From the NCBI GenBank assembly GCA_013112715.1, contig JABFGB010000010.1, positions 62,001 through 126,000 of the forward strand: a stretch of DNA of 64,000 bases. The letters run 5' to 3'. Source of the DNA: Chloroflexota bacterium (GTDB lineage Bacteria > Chloroflexota > Anaerolineae > Aggregatilineales > J027). Positions 5,465 through 50,802 of the stretch are shown piece after piece. Under the pieces are notes generated by a model that ran no database searches, was not told the DNA's origin, and saw nothing but the letters and a program-made list of their open reading frames with translations. The position numbers and the translations under genes are program-made. Positions within the stretch are counted from its first letter, which is position 1. Each line of letters opens with the position of its first letter.

Positions 5465-5959
5465 TTATTTCGGATTTTCCATGTCTGGAATGGGCCGATC
5501 ATAGCTGTGTGGCTCCACCTGATGGGGTGTATCTTGCCCCCCCGGCGGCACCGGATCAATCAACATGTCTTTGGTGTAGATCGAGTCGCGCCGATCCGTG
5601 AAACTCAATTTGTATTCATGTTCCAATACAATGGCTTCGGTGGGGCAGGCATCCTCGCAATACCCACAGAAGATGCAGCGCAGCATGTTGATTTCATAGG
5701 TTTTGGCATAGCGCTCACCGGGGCTATAACGCTCATCATCAGTGTTTTCGGCAGCCTCGACCCAAATGGCATCAGCAGGGCAGGCGGCGGCACACAGCGC
5801 ACACCCAATACATTTTTCCATCCCGTTTTCATAACGCTTCAGCGCATGGCGGCCCTTGTAGCGTTCGCGCACAGGCCGTTCAACTTCAGGATATTGAAAG
5901 GTCGCTTTTTCCTGAAGCACATGCTTGATGGTGGTCATCAATCCATTAATCAAACCCAT
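5465..5959 (-). CDS. nuoI: NADH-quinone oxidoreductase subunit I (2x[4Fe-4S])
   Basis: Peripheral-arm subunit that carries clusters N6a and N6b toward the quinone site. 164 aa. Two ferredoxin-type motifs are complete: C50-IG-C53-AL-C56-AAA-C60-P and C95-IF-C98-GY-C101-EDA-C105-P. The C-terminal tail (about 30 residues, Pro/Asp rich) is typical of long NuoI forms. It starts 29 bases after nuoH. Confidence 0.97.
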   Translation of the reverse strand: MGLINGLMTTIKHVLQEKATFQYPEVERPVRERYKGRHALKRYENGMEKCIGCALCAAACPADAIWVEAAENTDDERYSPGERYAKTYEINMLRCIFCGYCEDACPTEAIVLEHEYKLSFTDRRDSIYTKDMLIDPVPPGGQDTPHQVEPHSYDRPIPDMENPK

Positions 5960-10229: not shown

Positions 10230-11560
10230 TAATCACCCGCTGGTTCTGCTACCTCTTCCAACTGCTTTTTGACTGGGGCAGGTTGTTTGGGTTTGGCCGC
10301 CGGAGCAGGGGTCTTGATGTAGGCCACGTATTCACTGCGGAAATGTTTCAGAGTGGCAAGAATAGGATTGATCGCAAAGTCGTTCAAGGCGCACAGGCTC
10401 TTGCCATTCATCTGCTTGGCGACATTTTCCAATTTTTCAAGATCGAGCATGGTCGCTTGGCCGTGAATGACATGCTCCATTAATTTCGCCAGCCAGTGTG
10501 TCCCCTCACGACAGGGCGTGCATTTGCCACAGCTTTCATGCTTAAAGAATTTAATCATCTTATAAGCGGCCCACACCATATCCGTGCTTTCGTCCATCAA
10601 AATGAACGAAGCCGAACCGAGGGTTGACCCCAATTTGCCAAGCGCCTCGTAGGTCATGGGTGTATCCAGCATTTGTTCAGTCACCGGGATGACCGGGCCG
10701 GATGCACCGGAGGGCAACAGGGCTTTAAAGGCTTTATTTGTGCCTGTGCCACCCGCCTTATCAAACAGCAGTTCACGGAAAGTCGTCCCCAGCGGCACTT
10801 CATAATTACCGGGACGCGCCACATGCCCACTGACGCTAAAAATCTTGGGGCCGGGGCTTTCGGGTGTGCCGATTTTTTTATATTCCGCCGCGCCGTTGAC
10901 GAGGATCCAAGGCACGTTGGCAAGCGTTTCGACGTTATTGACGACGGTGGGTTCATAATAGAGACCGCCGCCTTTTTGGGCCGGGAAGGGTGGACGGACA
11001 CGCGGCTGACCCAAGAAGCCTTGCAAGCTGTTTAGCAGGGCGCTTTCTTCCCCACAGATATAGGCCCCTGCGCCGAGATGGACAAACATATCACATGACC
11101 AATTACCGCCGAGGATGTTTTGACCAATCAGATTTTGCTGGCGGGCTTCGGCAATACAGGCTTCGAGGTTATGAGCCAAATCCCAAAACTCACCCCGGCA
11201 GTAGATATAAACCGCCGTTGCTTGGATGGCATAGGCACAGATCATCGCCCCTTCAATCAATTGATAGGGGTTCTTTTCCATAATCTGGCGGTCTTTAAAG
11301 GTGCCGGGTTCGCTTTCGTCGGCGTTCACCACCACATATTTCACAGGTTCGTTTTTGGGGATAAAGCTCCATTTACGACCTGCGCTGAACCCCGCGCCCC
11401 CACGTCCACGCAAATTGGAGTCAATCACAATATTGATAACTTCGTCGGGGGTATGCTGTGTAACGGCCTTTTTAAAGCCTTCCCATCCCCCATTGGCGGT
11501 GTATACGTCCAATTTGCCAATATCGGGAATGTCCAAATCGCGCAAGAGAATGTATGCCAT
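10229..11560 (-). CDS. nuoF: NADH-quinone oxidoreductase subunit F (NADH/FMN binding)
   Basis: Oxidises NADH through FMN and passes electrons to the [4Fe-4S] cluster N3. The glycine-rich nucleotide segment GRGGAGFSAGRKWSF and YVVVNADESEPGTFKDR identify the FMN/NADH site. ESCGKCTPCREG plus a downstream Cys (NGKSLCALNDFA) bind N3. The C-terminal about 35 residues are Pro/Ala/Lys rich. ATG at 11560 (443 aa, MAYILLRDLD) is preferred over a TTG two codons upstream because AGG lies six to eleven bases before it. It follows the small membrane gene and leads into the TPR gene. Confidence 0.95.
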   Translation of the reverse strand: MAYILLRDLDIPDIGKLDVYTANGGWEGFKKAVTQHTPDEVINIVIDSNLRGRGGAGFSAGRKWSFIPKNEPVKYVVVNADESEPGTFKDRQIMEKNPYQLIEGAMICAYAIQATAVYIYCRGEFWDLAHNLEACIAEARQQNLIGQNILGGNWSCDMFVHLGAGAYICGEESALLNSLQGFLGQPRVRPPFPAQKGGGLYYEPTVVNNVETLANVPWILVNGAAEYKKIGTPESPGPKIFSVSGHVARPGNYEVPLGTTFRELLFDKAGGTGTNKAFKALLPSGASGPVIPVTEQMLDTPMTYEALGKLGSTLGSASFILMDESTDMVWAAYKMIKFFKHESCGKCTPCREGTHWLAKLMEHVIHGQATMLDLEKLENVAKQMNGKSLCALNDFAINPILATLKHFRSEYVAYIKTPAPAAKPKQPAPVKKQLEEVAEPAGD

Positions 11561-28674: not shown

Positions 28675-29754
28675 ATGACGCTGATACTTGGTATTGAAAC
28701 CTCGTGCGATGAAACGGCGGCGGCGGTGGTCGAAAATGGGCGCTGGCTGCGCTCGAATGTCATCGCCTCCCAAATTGATCTCCATGCCCAGTTTGGCGGC
28801 GTGTTCCCTGAAGTAGCGGCGCGTGCCCATATTGAGGCGATTAGCCTGATTGTGCATGAGGCCCTTGAAAAAGCCGGGGTGACGCTGGATGAGATTGACG
28901 CTCTTGCGCTGACTCGTGGGCCGGGATTGGCGGGGGCGCTGCTGGTGGGGGTCAATTTTGGGAAGGGCCTCGCATTAGGGCGCAATTTGCCCATCGTCGG
29001 GGTGAATCATCTGGAAGGGCACATTTATTCCAATTGGCTGACCGAACCCGAACGCGAAATTGTCTTCCCTGTTCTAAATCTGATCGTGTCGGGTGGGCAT
29101 ACCGAATTGGTGCTGATGACCGATCATGGCACGTATCAATTATTGGGCGAGACGATGGATGACGCGGCGGGGGAGGCGTTTGATAAAGTGGGGCGGTTGC
29201 TTGGTTTGCCCTATCCCGGCGGGCCATCTATCCAAAAAGCGGCGCAGAATGGCAATCCGACGGCCTATGATTTTCCGCGTGCCATGTTGGACGAAGGACT
29301 GGATTTCAGTTTTTCGGGATTGAAAACGGCGGTGATGCGGGCGGTGCGACCTCCCCAAACGGGCAAGCGGGTCGCCGGAGCAGAAAGCATGAAATCGGGT
29401 GAGATGCGGCCTGATATTTCGATTGCGGATGTCGCAGCGAGTTTTCAGGCGGCGGCGGTGGAGGTGCTGGTCAAGAAAACGGTGCAGGCGGCAGTGGCCT
29501 CCGATGTGACCGAGATTTTGATTTCGGGCGGGGTCAGCGCGAATGGGCCGCTGCGGGAAGCGATGAAACAGGCTGCGCCGATACCAGTCCGGTATCCACC
29601 CCTGTCGCTCTGTACCGATAATGCGGCGATGATCGCGGCGGCAGGCTACTATCGGTTTATGGCGGGGCAGCGCGATGATTTGGCGATGGATATACTCCCG
29701 ACATGGCCTCTGAATGAACTTTTACCGTATAATGGGGCTAATGGGAAAGGGTAG
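28675..29754 (+). CDS. tsaD: tRNA N6-adenosine threonylcarbamoyltransferase
   Basis: Transfers the threonylcarbamoyl group to A37 of ANN-decoding tRNAs, with TsaB/E partners. 359 aa. Landmarks are LGIETSCDETAAAVV (N-terminal ATP-fold), metal-binding GVNHLEGH (H-x-x-x-H), IVSGGHTELVLM, DDAAGEAFDKVGR, PYPGGP and the late ILISGGVSANGPLR with LCTDNAAMIAAAGYYR. The last about 22 codons (from 29668) are present again downstream at 30346-30410 with only synonymous changes, so the present C-terminus (ending NGANGKG) appears to have been replaced with that of an incoming copy. The Shine-Dalgarno is weak. Confidence 0.97.
   Translation: MTLILGIETSCDETAAAVVENGRWLRSNVIASQIDLHAQFGGVFPEVAARAHIEAISLIVHEALEKAGVTLDEIDALALTRGPGLAGALLVGVNFGKGLALGRNLPIVGVNHLEGHIYSNWLTEPEREIVFPVLNLIVSGGHTELVLMTDHGTYQLLGETMDDAAGEAFDKVGRLLGLPYPGGPSIQKAAQNGNPTAYDFPRAMLDEGLDFSFSGLKTAVMRAVRPPQTGKRVAGAESMKSGEMRPDISIADVAASFQAAAVEVLVKKTVQAAVASDVTEILISGGVSANGPLREAMKQAAPIPVRYPPLSLCTDNAAMIAAAGYYRFMAGQRDDLAMDILPTWPLNELLPYNGANGKG
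29668..29732 (+). repeat. tsaD 3'-end direct repeat, upstream copy
   Basis: 65 bases inside tsaD (codons from QRDDLAMD to LLPYN). It matches 30346-30410 at 60 of 65 positions; the first 35 or so bases are identical. All five differences are synonymous in the tsaD frame. Confidence 0.9.
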
Positions 29755-29758
29755 TCTG

Positions 29759-30322
29759 ATGCTGCACGAGAGGTTATATACCCCAACAGAATTTTTGGAA
29801 TTTGTTCAACAGCCCGAAAACGCGGGCCGCTGGTTTGAATTGGTGCAAGGGGAGATTGTTGAAGTGCCGCCACCCACGATTTTGCATACTTTGATTGGCA
29901 CGGCTTTTGCTCGATTTTTGGGGAATTTTGTGACGACCCATCATCTCGGTTATGTGACGGCGGATGGGGGGGCGTATATGTTGGGACCGGGCATGATCTA
30001 TGTGCCGGACGCGGCTTATATTTCCTATGAACGTGCCCCGCATGTGCCCGAAAAGTATTTTTTAGCAGCGCCCGATTTGGCGGTTGAAATTGTATCCCCA
30101 AACGACAAACCGCATGAGGTTCAAAAAAAAGTGGCGAATTATTTGGAGGCAGGGACAAGGTTGGTGTGGGTGGTCTATCCCGAAGAAAAAGCGGTCTATG
30201 TATGGCGTAAAGCCGATGAAGGCCAGATGCTGGTAAAAAAAGTTGACCTCAATGGCATTTTGGAGGGTGACGACGTGCTGCCGGGTTTTCAATTGGCGGT
30301 GCGCGATGTGTTTCCTGAGTAA
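29759..30322 (+). CDS. Uma2-family PD-(D/E)XK nuclease
   Basis: 187 aa. Matches the Uma2 (DUF820) pattern: TPTEFLEFVQQPENAGRWFELVQGEIVEVPPP, a catalytic PDAAYIS, then PDLAVEIVSPNDKPHEVQKKVANYLEAGTRLVWVVYPEEKAVYV with the E-x-V/K residues of the nuclease core. Substrate is unknown; the family is amplified in Chloroflexota and cyanobacteria. The ATG at 29759 follows the tsaD stop by four bases with AAAGGG just upstream; earlier in-frame ATGs lie inside tsaD. It is bounded on both sides by copies of the tsaD 3' end, so it looks like inserted cargo. Confidence 0.9.
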   Translation: MLHERLYTPTEFLEFVQQPENAGRWFELVQGEIVEVPPPTILHTLIGTAFARFLGNFVTTHHLGYVTADGGAYMLGPGMIYVPDAAYISYERAPHVPEKYFLAAPDLAVEIVSPNDKPHEVQKKVANYLEAGTRLVWVVYPEEKAVYVWRKADEGQMLVKKVDLNGILEGDDVLPGFQLAVRDVFPE

Positions 30323-30345
30323 CTACTTTTTACGATTGGGTGAGC

Positions 30346-30410
30346 CAGCGCGATGATTTGGCGATGGATATACTCCCGACGTGGCCGCTGAATGAACTGC
30401 TACCCTATAA
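30346..30410 (+). pseudogene. tsaD 3'-end direct repeat, downstream remnant
   Basis: In the tsaD frame this piece reads QRDDLAMDILPTWPLNELL followed by PYNKTTHTV and a TAG stop at about 30430. It is therefore a complete alternative TsaD C-terminus cut off from its gene. It differs from the copy in tsaD at five bases, none changing the protein. It most likely is the original 3' end of the resident tsaD, displaced by insertion of the Uma2 segment. Confidence 0.85.
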
Positions 30411-30747: not shown

Positions 30748-31092
30748 TTCAATTTCCTCCTGCTGAGACTGCTTTCGAGAAGCAGTTGAGTTTCAGAATA
30801 GGTGTATGTTTAGAGAATACAAGCTCAGTGGTGTTCTTCCATGAACCGGGTGGGTCAAATCAGATTAGCCACATGGGGGATATTGAGGGGTACGAACTGG
30901 GCAGTTCGATGGGGAAATAGAGGACAACTGAAGTAGGCGAACGCCAACCAAATAACTTTACCATTCTTCGCATTCGTTATCATGCACATATATGGGCGGC
31001 TCACTTGACTATAGATATTATTTTGACATATTCTTTAGATGAGCTTTAGTGATATTCTATATTTAGATGTCTGGATAGCTTGGGAGCAAATG
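30748..31092. other. Intergenic region before the low-GC gene
   Basis: 345 bases with no supported gene. It contains the upstream region of the GlsB gene, an inverted repeat CGAACT-GGGC-AGTTCG (30893-30908) that resembles a Gram-positive LexA site but with six instead of four bases between CGAAC and GTTCG, and a weak promoter (TTGACA 31023-31028, TTTAGT 31045-31050) for the gene at 31093. Confidence 0.45.
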
Positions 31093-32169
31093 ATGAAATC
31101 TAAATTGCAAACTCAATCTGATGTGCTTGTTCGTGACATAATCTACTTTGACCTAGAAAAAACCATTTCAATTGCCAGTCAACTTGAAGGTGGTTTACGA
31201 CAAGAGATGCAATCTATTATCGAATCAGAGAATAGGGTTGAAACTAGGTTTGAGGTCGGCGTGCCAAAACTCGTTGGCAGTGATGCAGAAAAATCTAAGG
31301 CCGATAGAACATCCCAATCCGAAACAAAAATTGCTCATCATGACTTGCTAGTACGTGTAGAGGAAATCCTCTTTGAAAGAGGTGGAGCGCTTGATTTAAA
31401 TACATCCATAGCCCAATTGGGAGAGGATATAGAACAAGTTAGATCACAACTTTCTCAGACAATGTATGTTCGTGTGGAGGGTTGGGCACTAGTTCAAGAC
31501 TATAATCAAGTTAAAAAATTAATGAAGTCGTTAAAACCTTTACAGGAATTTGCAAGTAGAGCCTCCTTGCATCAACTTGCCGAAATGCCCGAATATAAAG
31601 AACTCCTTGCACAAATCGAGAACCTAAAGGAAAGGTTAAAACATGTGAAAGATGCAAGGGAAAAAAAGCAAATACGTGATGGACTGCATGAACTAGAAAA
31701 GACTAAACAGCAACTGGACGATAGCACAAAGCAAGAATGGCTACCAGATTGGCAGATAGAAGGGATTGAGACTTTAATAGATTCCTTTATGCCAAATCGT
31801 ATCATTCTCAGGCTATTCCCATTAAGTAAAGAACCTCAATTTCAAATTGTGGCAAACTTGAAAAGGGGGAGTTTTATAGATAAAGATATTGACAATTTTC
31901 TGTTTGCATATAGCAGTCAACCAAATGTGAAACTAAGTGTTATTGGACTCATTACTTCGATTCCAGATGTTGAAGGACATCCATTTTTTCCTCTTCAAAA
32001 TGATAACCGGGATGCTTCAAACCCAAATGATTTACTTAGCATTGAAACTGCTTTTGATGAGGTCTTTAATGTGTTGGTAAATATTGAACAGATAGGACGT
32101 TTTTCAAGTTATCCTAATGTCACTATCTACCCGCTAGCTTTATATAGAACCATTCAGGGTAAAGACTAG
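31093..32169 (+). CDS. Low-GC accessory protein, resembles DUF6414
   Basis: 358 aa from the ATG at 31093, chosen because GGGAG lies six bases upstream; open ATGs also exist at 31090 and 31039. The N-terminus (VLVRDIIYFDLEKTISIASQLEGG) resembles the R-(D/E)-F-I-Y-L-D...SQL-x-x-G start of DUF6414-type proteins; this is recognition by pattern, not a search. Residues about 155-215 are strongly charged and probably a coiled coil (ENLKERLKHVKDAREKKQIR). The C-terminus is alpha/beta. The gene is clearly AT-richer than its neighbours and lies between two 3'-end duplication scars, so recent transfer is likely. Confidence 0.7.
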   Translation: MKSKLQTQSDVLVRDIIYFDLEKTISIASQLEGGLRQEMQSIIESENRVETRFEVGVPKLVGSDAEKSKADRTSQSETKIAHHDLLVRVEEILFERGGALDLNTSIAQLGEDIEQVRSQLSQTMYVRVEGWALVQDYNQVKKLMKSLKPLQEFASRASLHQLAEMPEYKELLAQIENLKERLKHVKDAREKKQIRDGLHELEKTKQQLDDSTKQEWLPDWQIEGIETLIDSFMPNRIILRLFPLSKEPQFQIVANLKRGSFIDKDIDNFLFAYSSQPNVKLSVIGLITSIPDVEGHPFFPLQNDNRDASNPNDLLSIETAFDEVFNVLVNIEQIGRFSSYPNVTIYPLALYRTIQGKD

Positions 32170-32171
32170 CA

Positions 32172-32253
32172 TTACAAATCAGTCTCCACCAGAATCCCTT
32201 TATCTTACATAGCACCCATCAAGCCCTGCCATTGATCTTCACGCACGGCGACG
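32172..32253 (-). pseudogene. Decayed duplicate of the 3' end of the helicase-associated gene
   Basis: On the minus strand this reads as the last about 27 codons of the gene at 32638-34401: 68 of 72 bases (32182-32253) match 32648-32719, with 45 in a row identical. It ends with its own stop (TAA, after VETDL in place of VETEL). A CAG codon has become an internal TAA, and one Pro has become Leu. It lies after the 125-codon gene and belongs to no open gene. It is best read as the displaced original end of the upstream gene. Confidence 0.85.
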
Positions 32254-32263
32254 ACAACATGCC

Positions 32264-32641
32264 TCAAAATAGCTCAATTTGAATATGGGGATCAACTCTG
32301 AGTCGGATGCCATAGGGGATGGTTTGTTGTCCATCGTAGCGACTGCCGAATGTTTTAGCAGGTGCAAACTCAATAAATTCCCCTTGTGAATCTCCTTTTG
32401 TATATTTAATCACCCGTGCTCCGGCGCATTCCTTCAAGGCCACATGAAAGATAGGTGACCCAATACCATCTTGATAAAGGTCTATCCGAACATCACCGTC
32501 TAGTTGCCAGATGGTCAATAGAAGTTTTTGACCGGGGCGTATAACCTCAAAATGATGTGATGTCTCATATTCCCCGACTTCGGGTAAAACATTGAGCGTT
32601 GCAATAAATTCGGTTTCATCCCAGACAAAATCGGGTCTCAT
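32264..32641 (-). CDS. 125-aa protein of unknown function, inserted at a gene 3' end
   Basis: A soluble, beta-rich protein (FEVIRPGQKLLLTIWQLDGDVRIDLYQDG, then an acidic-aromatic C-terminus). No signal peptide or membrane segment and no family recognised. Its ATG overlaps the stop of the helicase-associated gene (ATGA), so it is translated by coupling to it. A decayed second copy of that gene's 3' end starts 11 bases after its stop, so this gene appears to be cargo inserted between the two. Confidence 0.65.
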   Translation of the reverse strand: MRPDFVWDETEFIATLNVLPEVGEYETSHHFEVIRPGQKLLLTIWQLDGDVRIDLYQDGIGSPIFHVALKECAGARVIKYTKGDSQGEFIEFAPAKTFGSRYDGQQTIPYGIRLRVDPHIQIELF

Positions 32642-34401
32642 AGTTCGGTCTCCACCGGAATCCCCTTATCCTGCATAGCACCCATCAAGCCCTGCCATTG
32701 ATCTTCACGCACGGCGACGGCCAATGGGCCAAGTTTAACCCCTAAGAAACGTCGGATTTCAGGGGTCTCCCAGATGACTTCCATCAAGGCTTCGGTGTCC
32801 ACACGCAGCACGATCATTTTTTGGATGACCGCCGATGCGCCCTGTGCCTTGCGCCAATTTTCGATCAGGGCGTGGACATGGGGAGGGATGGTGTGAACGG
32901 TACGCTGCAAAAAGGTCTCGACATTTTCTGGTTTGATGCCCTGCTGCTCGGCGCGTTTAAAGCCTTTGCTGTTGAGCAGATACACATAGGGGTCGGCGGG
33001 GTCGCCCCATTCGGTAAAACGGGCCAATTGGAAACGGTCAATGCGGCTGGCGGCACGCGGCACTAACAGTTTGCCGGACGCTTCGAGGGTGAGGGGTGTT
33101 TCGGGGTCTTTGCGGTTGGGCCAATCGCCGTGACCCGCCCATGCTTTGCCAAAGACGTTGAGATGGCAGGCAATCGGTATGCCGTCGGGGGTATCCATCC
33201 CCAAATCCACCAGACCGAGCCAATGCAGTGGGCCAGCAACGATAAATTTTAGGAGTGTCCCTTCAACGGCGTTCCAACTTTCAAAACCACGTAAATATTC
33301 CCCGGTGCGGCGTTCGCGGATGTACCAACTGGAATAATCGCCGCCCGGACGCTGAAAATCGGGTTCGACAGCTTTGATTTCTGCGACCAGCCCGTCCAAT
33401 GAGACCCATGTTTCACCCGTGACGGCCTCGAATACGCCACGCAGGGTTTCACGGGGGAGGGTCGGGTCATTTTGCCAGCCCGTCGCTTCGGGGTCGAGGC
33501 TGGGGACAAGCCAGAGTTCGTTATAGCCCTCGCTGGTGCGCCATGCATCCACCAAAGATTTGACTTGGGCAGTACGGATGCTTTCGAGCCATGTACGGGC
33601 AGTTTGGCGGACGGGCTGAAAAGTATTGTTGACGACGGCGATTAGGCCCATTTGCCCCGCTAATTGAATCAGTAAATCGAGCCGTGCATATTCTTTGGGC
33701 CCAACAAATTGAGCCATCAGGTCATCTTGGAGTTCATTGGCGAGATAACCCGATTCCAATCTCGTCTCATGTACCTGCAAATAGGCCAAGAGGGTCGTCA
33801 TGTCGTCTACCAGCGTCGTATCAGCTTTGTGTTGATGGGGCGGCGCTTCCATTTCAAGTTCGACTTCTTCGATGTCCTCGTCGTTTCCTTCGGTCAATGT
33901 TTCTTGTTCCTCATCGTCCTCATCGGGGAAATCATCGGGTTCGGCGCTGAGGTCATAACCTGTTTGGTGAATGGGCAGGACGGCGGCAAGGTCATCCGGC
34001 ACAAAAACATAGGGCTGCAACCCCGTTTTGCTCTCATCAAAGCCCATCGCCAACAGGCCGCGATAAAACAAAATCTCGCCAATGCCCTTTGGTGCAAGGT
34101 GGGGTTTTTCGCGTTCACGTGCGCCTGCACCGATCTGCCGAATCTCACCATACAATCGCCCAAACTGCACGGCGGGCATTTTGTGTTGACGCGAGGCCAA
34201 CAGCATTTGTAACGCGCCGCGCTCGGCATCACTCAGGCGACTCCATTCATGCTCGGCTTGGGCAGGGTTCAACATGGCTTCGGCAATACGTTCGGCGGCC
34301 ACTTTTTCATCGCGGGTGTCCAAATCCACGTCCCAACGGTTGGCGATAATTTGGAGCAGGTGCAGGTCATATTCAAAGAGGGTGGAGCGCAAATCGGTCA
34401 T
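32638..34401 (-). CDS. Helicase-associated (XPB-N/Helicase_C_3-like) domain protein without motor
   Basis: 587 aa. The N-terminal about 130 residues (LHLLQIIANRWDVDLDTRD, RLSDAERGALQMLLA) resemble the winged-helix region of actinobacterial helicase-associated proteins. An acidic stretch is at about 155-195. The C-terminal about 90 residues (PPHVHALIENWRKAQG, VLRVDTEALMEVIWETPEIRRFLG) match the PF13625-type helicase C-terminal domain. No Walker or DEAD motifs are present. It lies four bases after the cobalamin adenosyltransferase gene on the same strand. Function unknown. Its 3' end is duplicated downstream. Confidence 0.75.
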   Translation of the reverse strand: MTDLRSTLFEYDLHLLQIIANRWDVDLDTRDEKVAAERIAEAMLNPAQAEHEWSRLSDAERGALQMLLASRQHKMPAVQFGRLYGEIRQIGAGAREREKPHLAPKGIGEILFYRGLLAMGFDESKTGLQPYVFVPDDLAAVLPIHQTGYDLSAEPDDFPDEDDEEQETLTEGNDEDIEEVELEMEAPPHQHKADTTLVDDMTTLLAYLQVHETRLESGYLANELQDDLMAQFVGPKEYARLDLLIQLAGQMGLIAVVNNTFQPVRQTARTWLESIRTAQVKSLVDAWRTSEGYNELWLVPSLDPEATGWQNDPTLPRETLRGVFEAVTGETWVSLDGLVAEIKAVEPDFQRPGGDYSSWYIRERRTGEYLRGFESWNAVEGTLLKFIVAGPLHWLGLVDLGMDTPDGIPIACHLNVFGKAWAGHGDWPNRKDPETPLTLEASGKLLVPRAASRIDRFQLARFTEWGDPADPYVYLLNSKGFKRAEQQGIKPENVETFLQRTVHTIPPHVHALIENWRKAQGASAVIQKMIVLRVDTEALMEVIWETPEIRRFLGVKLGPLAVAVREDQWQGLMGAMQDKGIPVETEL

Positions 34402-50244: not shown

Positions 50245-50259
50245 AATTGAGAATCCCTT

Positions 50260-50511
50260 ATGGCTCACAAAAGCTCCTTTCAAAAACTGCTGGATTTCTT
50301 AGACCGTTTAGAGGATGAGGGGTTATGGTATCGTCTAACCCATAGTCGCCCTGAAACAATTTGCGTTTTTGTTGGTGTTCCCGGCGAACGGTGGGAAGTT
50401 GAGTTTTTTGCGGACGGACATATCGAATTTGAGCGGTTTAAGAGTTCCGGCGATATTGAGGATGAGAGCGTTTTAGAGCAGGTCATGAAGTGGTACATTG
50501 AGGCGAAGTGA
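50260..50511 (+). CDS. Conserved small protein, tandem copy 1
   Basis: 83 aa. Shares with the next gene the pattern SFQKLLDFLD-x-LEDEGLWYRL, then RPETICV and VPGERWEVEFFADGHIEFER; about 65% of aligned residues are identical. The conserved hydrophobic helix plus GERWEVEFF strand pair is also found in stand-alone genes of Chloroflexota and cyanobacteria. Function unknown; small paired proteins of this size are sometimes immunity proteins. It follows an unknown membrane protein gene by 15 bases. Confidence 0.75.
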   Translation: MAHKSSFQKLLDFLDRLEDEGLWYRLTHSRPETICVFVGVPGERWEVEFFADGHIEFERFKSSGDIEDESVLEQVMKWYIEAK

Positions 50512-50517
50512 ATAACT

Positions 50518-50802
50518 ATGTCACGCAAAAATTCATTTCAAAAACTGCTAGATTTTTTAGATCATTTAGAGGATGAGGGTTTGTGGTATCGCCTAGACCA
50601 TTTTCGTCCAGAGACTATCTGTGTATGTGTGGATGTGCCGGGTGAACGGTGGGAAGTGGAATTTTTTGCGGATGGGCATATCGAGTTTGAGCGGTTTAGA
50701 AGTGTGAATGGTATTGAACCCGATGGTGAATTAGAAAAGCATCTCAAGTTGCACACGGAAGATTACGAGAACGATGATGGCACCAACAATACTCAATCGT
50801 GA
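50518..50802 (+). CDS. Conserved small protein, tandem copy 2
   Basis: 94 aa, paralogue of the previous gene with a longer, acidic C-terminal tail (EDYENDDGTNNTQS). Six bases separate the two genes. Its end overlaps the start of mpg by 29 bases, so the group is cotranscribed with a DNA repair gene. The copies are close in protein but not identical in DNA, so the duplication is not very recent. Confidence 0.75.
   Translation: MSRKNSFQKLLDFLDHLEDEGLWYRLDHFRPETICVCVDVPGERWEVEFFADGHIEFERFRSVNGIEPDGELEKHLKLHTEDYENDDGTNNTQS

Follow-up and report, generated by a model that had tools for sequence, protein, structure and literature searches.

Many bacterial defence and toxin–antitoxin hotspots lack recombinases, and the entry route of single small genes is poorly documented. 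Some integrative islands restore the 3' end of the gene that they target, such as a tRNA gene, the tmRNA gene or guaA. Fungal mitochondria contain mobile-ORF hybrids (atp6 in Allomyces; atp6, atp9, cox2 and nad3 in Glomus), in which the insert consists of a foreign C-terminal end plus an ORF, so that a hybrid gene is formed and the native end is left downstream; mobility is driven by the ORF product, a homing endonuclease of LAGLIDADG or GIY-YIG type (PMC3630166). In HFIR, homology joins one end of the incoming DNA and the other end is joined illegitimately, with deletions of ~1 kb and microhomology of 3-10 bp (PMC3240628). Integrase-free hotspots are exchanged through their flanking core genes (Oliveira et al. 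2017, PMC5635113).

The window analysed here, a 64,000-nucleotide stretch of a Chloroflexota genome (G000), contains a helicase-associated gene (hel) whose 3' end is present twice, on either side of a small cargo gene. The features of the locus are:

31039-32169, plus strand: DUF6414 gene, convergent with the hel remnant and absent from four sibling genomes
32179-32253, minus strand: outer copy of the hel 3' end, a remnant with an internal TAA (32205-32207) and an aligned stop codon (32172-32174)
32264-32641, minus strand: cargo gene of 125 amino acids, coupled to hel by ATGA, without a match in Pfam, NCBIfam or PADLOC
32645-32719, minus strand: inner, intact copy of the hel 3' end, delimited by repeat search
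32638-34401, minus strand: hel, the host gene, 587 amino acids, helicase C-terminal-like, with a weak PF13625 match

The two copies form a direct repeat of 75 nt (70/75 identical, 93%), which contains the 72-base match that had been noticed from the letters alone (32182-32253 versus 32648-32719, 68/72 identical, same orientation). A BLAST comparison of the window with itself gave three repeats in all at E<1e-3. Because the hel-end repeat has an E value of 8e-25, and no other ungapped 75-mer match within the window exceeds 35/75 on the plus strand or 39/75 on the minus strand, the repeat is far beyond chance. The remnant stop aligns with the hel stop at 32638-32640 and the TAA upstream of it lies in frame on the minus strand. 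The 125-aa gene is indeed the sole gene between the copies and shares its ATGA with the hel stop codon. About 10 bases past the remnant lies the end of the DUF6414 gene, which is probably older cargo. The host gene has an orthologue in 59 of 61 related genomes; its product scores 32.2 bits against Pfam Helicase_C_3, slightly under the cut-off of 34.2 bits.

A parallel layout had been noted at tsaD, on the other strand, and this is also present: 29661-29732 matches 30339-30410 over 72 nt at 89% identity, with a Uma2 gene between the copies. The tsaD features are:

28675-29754, plus strand: tsaD, host gene of the parallel event, with the new tail GANGKG
29714-30322, plus strand: Uma2 (PF05685) cargo gene behind tsaD, with a true start possibly downstream of 29714
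30339-30410, plus strand: remnant of the tsaD 3' end, with the old tail KTTHTV behind it; a matching tail, KTTHTALV, is still on tsaD of G003

Comparison with four genomes of the same genus (siblings G001-G004) shows what this site looks like when it is unoccupied. Intact tsaD in G000, G001 and G004 ends ...LLPYNGANGKG, with Uma2 next. The tsaD of G003, ...LLPYNKTTHTALV, continues without a break into what lies behind the tsaD remnant in G000, G001 and G004. The G003 site could either never have received an insert or have been cleanly excised through the repeats. G004 carries a second, more decayed tsaD-end remnant (L036 about 11203-11279), between glsB-like and SIR2-like genes, which suggests repeated insertion behind tsaD. 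In G026, from another family of the same order, the tsaD end is copied 49/49 around a DUF433+DUF5615 pair (L188:1844-2711, G026:C189). Here the intact tsaD ends LTTG and the remnant continues as LTTAVAAKEQSDAR, so both old and new tails are visible. Widespread duplication of the tsaD end was rejected: 4 of 80 tsaD loci in the order are positive, in two lineages. The tsaD of G002 (L181 about 3320, G002:C31) stops early (..LNELT); a short insertion separates this end from an apparent old tail. XisH proteins lie behind tsaD in 3 of the 69 genes scanned.

In the family member G007 the ends of tsaD and hel adjoin directly, which marks the tsaD-hel interval as a place where DNA has been inserted between two core genes that converge. 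Its cargo turns over among the siblings, taking in SUKH, SIR2-like, EVE/REase-like, Uma2 and DUF6414 genes. Variable cargo between conserved core genes, a feature of integrase-free HR hotspots, is found in the siblings, and neither the window interval nor the siblings' cargo contains an integrase or transposase gene. The hel protein of G001-G004 is 87-95% identical to that of the window. Behind hel lie a SIR2-like gene in G004, an EVE/REase-like gene in G002 and two genes in G001 and G003: first a homologue of the 125-aa gene, next one of SUKH type, which is broken in G001. In G002, tsaD and hel are on different contigs. The original prediction was to be checked by seeing whether, in relatives, the end of hel adjoins the sequence before 32172; no sibling has the DUF6414 gene beside hel, and the gene is absent from all four. 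A sensitive self-search detected no hel remnant in G001-G004. The presence of the 125-aa homologue behind hel without a remnant in G001 and G003 fits the long-standing partnership that the prediction had named as its counter-case, but only in part. The homologue is just 51-52% identical, against 94-95% for the hel protein, and joins hel at a different junction, so that the two do not descend vertically from one insertion.

The same anatomy recurs at two further core genes. At ruvX of G004 an end repeat of 133 nt (90% identity) encloses DUF5615+DUF433 cargo that lies opposite to ruvX (L297, G004:C1 near 451 kb). In G001 and G002, ruvX has a single copy of the duplicated segment with continuous flanks on both sides, that is, an empty site, and in G003 the DUF5615+DUF433 cargo is present and the remnant is absent. 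At ruvX of G000 the end repeat is 97 nt (74% identity) and surrounds a PIN protein gene and a gene for an 83-aa protein (L330, G000:C18 near 121.2-121.5 kb). One gene end has therefore received two cargos within one genus, DUF5615+DUF433 in G003 and G004 and PIN plus the 83-aa protein in G000. A MocR-like gene carries an end repeat of 54-58 nt around DUF5615+DUF433 in G003 (L320, G003:C164) and G004 (L302, G004:C19 near 140 kb); its new tail is common to G000, G001, G003 and G004, and the site is empty in G002.

Direct repeats were also seen in other positions. In G003, 108-nt repeats of 84% identity (L318:955-1060 and 2211-2316, G003:C162) flank DUF5615+DUF433, 20 nt past the end of a thioesterase-like gene. 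In G000, a 136-nt upstream region is duplicated (79% identity) around a 117-aa ORF (G000:C3:32001-32136 and 32633-32767), perhaps a mirror case at the 5' end of a gene, and a 47-nt intergenic repeat (89% identity) surrounds a 68-aa ORF (G000:C10:5326-5372 and 5648-5694). The window itself has a further direct repeat of 182 nt at 81% identity (50259-50440 and 50517-50698).

The divergence between copies bears on which of them is foreign. The G000 ruvX remnant has 25/97 differences from the intact copy in the same genome and 13/97 from G003 ruvX, with a bootstrap of 1.000 (sites were simply resampled, here and below, which falls short of a full tree test). Because the remnant is nearer to G003 ruvX than to its own copy, simple local duplication is ruled out at this site. 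Decay of the remnant does not account for the result, because decay inflates the distance to everything. The MocR-like remnants in G004 and G003 are likewise nearer to another species' end than to their own copies (bootstraps 0.991 and 0.879). At hel the remnant differs from its own copy at 9/82 positions and from G001 at 9/82, and the intact end differs from G004 at 5/82. Remnant and intact copy have thus diverged like orthologues of different species, and the copy-grouping test, with a bootstrap of 0.454, favours neither grouping. These comparisons support a donor origin of the new end for G000 ruvX and for MocR; for hel we infer it. Two other pairs are nearly or fully identical, with 4/97 differences at G004 ruvX and 0/49 at G026 tsaD.

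The 125-aa cargo gene is single-copy, and in the phylum its family is known at hel in three siblings only. A genome-wide element carrying it was accordingly rejected, and the check proposed at the outset, for the family behind other genes with duplicated 3' ends, found no example in the phylum. Carriage by phages was also rejected, with no match in phage records or viral contigs. Distant homologues (36-41% identity) occur on Burkholderiales replicons. The predicted structure is a poor all-beta model (pLDDT 48) whose best fold match is a CdiI immunity protein (E 0.095), and the fold assignment was set aside because the model is too poor to use. In G003 a SUKH gene adjoins the 125-aa homologue. 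The cargo most likely encodes a small immunity- or defence-type protein, an assignment that is weak, with the immunity role a guess.

Surveying 1527 ORFs of G000 gave hel and tsaD as the only clear short 3'-end duplications, the others being tandem paralogues or weak matches; the survey took in 2.0 of the 5.55 Mb of this draft genome and missed ruvX on C18, which was found later via DUF5615. With hel and tsaD alone in the survey and 4/80 tsaD loci in two lineages, gene-end duplication is uncommon but recurrent at certain gene ends. Uma2 was rejected as a general driver, as gene-end repeats among 30 Uma2 loci occur at the tsaD ones only. A text search of the literature did not turn up any previous account of scars of this kind in a bacterial chromosome, which is weak evidence.

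We favour, at a probability of roughly 0.55, the acquisition of the 125-aa gene by recombination through hel's own 3' end. We infer the following order of events at hel. Incoming DNA from a related strain would have carried a hel end followed by the cargo gene, and RecA-type recombination within that end would have joined it to resident hel. End joining, or a crossover in short homology, would have attached the far side at a point ~75 bp within the resident copy. The product would be hel with a donor-derived tail, the cargo and a defunct 75-bp remainder of the former end. The direct repeats would then permit clean loss by recombination, which could also account for the empty tsaD site of G003. 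In favour of this reading, the anatomy recurs at tsaD, ruvX and the MocR-like gene, with empty sites at tsaD and ruvX. The inserts at all four genes are 0.4-0.9 kb, consist of cargo only and contain no integrase or transposase genes. Against it, in no relative does hel run directly into what precedes 32172, and the copy-grouping test at hel does not decide between the origins. Recombination on one side would not by itself predict that the duplications cluster between 49 and 133 nt in length. The near-identical copies at G004 ruvX and G026 tsaD are as local target duplication would also give; repeats can be homogenised by gene conversion. The original proposal, that cargo arrived with a fresh 3' end and displaced the old one, is well supported for events of this kind in general, given the empty tsaD and ruvX sites and a G000 ruvX remnant that was not copied from the present intact end; for hel itself, no sibling provides a direct empty site.

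An unlikely alternative is a long target-site duplication, in which a gene end breaks in staggered fashion (nicks 50-130 bp apart) and takes up the cargo, fill-in copies the target, selection keeps readable genes and the new tail is simply the first bases of the insert. An empty ruvX site with one copy and both flanks intact is what this would leave, as are the identical copies in G026 and the similar ones at G004 ruvX. Cargo that lies opposite to the host gene in G004 and G003 needs no donor operon; the 47-bp repeat around the 68-aa ORF is intergenic, and the L318 repeat lies just past a gene end. Random breaks would not be expected to use tsaD and ruvX repeatedly, however, and the remnants of G000 ruvX and of MocR each have a closer match in another species' end than in their own intact copy. 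The regular length of 49-133 nt and the near-identical G026 and G004 copies leave room for target duplication, possibly as a first step before recombinational spread.

Two further readings are less probable still. It is improbable that the hel 3' end and the 125-aa gene, as an old hel partner, were duplicated in tandem and the second 125-aa copy then lost. The remnant-free homologue directly behind hel in G001 and G003 would fit such a history, as would a GAT codon common to the intact and remnant copies and absent in G001, G003 and G004. It would require a second deletion ending exactly at the stop codon of the remnant, past which there is no trace of a second 125-aa gene; the homologues are far more diverged than hel, and an identical two-step history would have to be assumed for each of the unrelated cargos at tsaD, ruvX and MocR. 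We consider it very unlikely that the gene 3' end is the attachment core of a site-specific element, like that of tRNA-gene islands, whose integrase was lost or acts in trans. In favour of it are a restored gene end, an att-like repeat length of 49-133 nt and, in G004, two stacked remnants of the tsaD end, which resemble tandem accretion. Such an element would have its own recombinase and a fixed att core, whereas the four targets are unrelated, no shared core or insert termini were seen and the 0.4-0.9 kb inserts hold no recombinase. No integrase family appears among the 25 commonest Pfam families listed for 69 genes, mostly the first gene past tsaD.

Acquisition through the host gene's own end shares features with each of the described systems. 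As in the mitochondrial hybrids, a C-terminal copy and a remnant surround an ORF, with sequence support for a foreign intact end at ruvX and MocR only; unlike them, the sites lie in a bacterial chromosome and the cargo is a 125-aa protein without a family match, Uma2 or DUF5615/PIN types, with no homing enzyme shown. As in HFIR, the favoured model would have one end of the incoming DNA joined by homology and the other illegitimately. The host gene runs continuously into a new end at all sites, but a stump of 49-133 bp remains of the resident gene end and, in place of a recipient deletion of insert-like size, tsaD and ruvX keep both flanks and one full target copy. The sites resemble integrase-free hotspots in that small defence-type cargo changes between fixed core genes without recombinases; double homologous exchange is scarless, whereas the sites here carry duplicated gene ends. 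With integrative islands they share a direct repeat of the target 3' end on both sides and a target that stays functional, and they differ in lacking an integrase, in their single-gene size and in their unrelated targets and repeat lengths. We regard the event as a variant form of recombinational gene uptake that has the anatomy of the mitochondrial hybrids and is not counted among those elements.

In these scars individual acquisitions can be read to the base, siblings supply empty sites and old tails, and a core gene is seen to gain a neighbour while staying unbroken. They also provide a search rule: a core-gene end repeated 1-2 kb downstream or nearer. More speculatively, and doubtful as it stands, there may be a RecA-dependent, integrase-free cassette cycle in which small toxin–antitoxin-like, nuclease or immunity genes, bounded by a copy of the last 50-130 bp of a core gene, would enter the same gene of other strains, give it a new tail and leave via the repeats, with tsaD, ruvX, hel and MocR as docking sites, which would make it the bacterial equivalent of the hybrids formed by mitochondrial mobile ORFs. 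Recurrence at other core genes in relatives points to an integrase-free route for adding small mobile genes.
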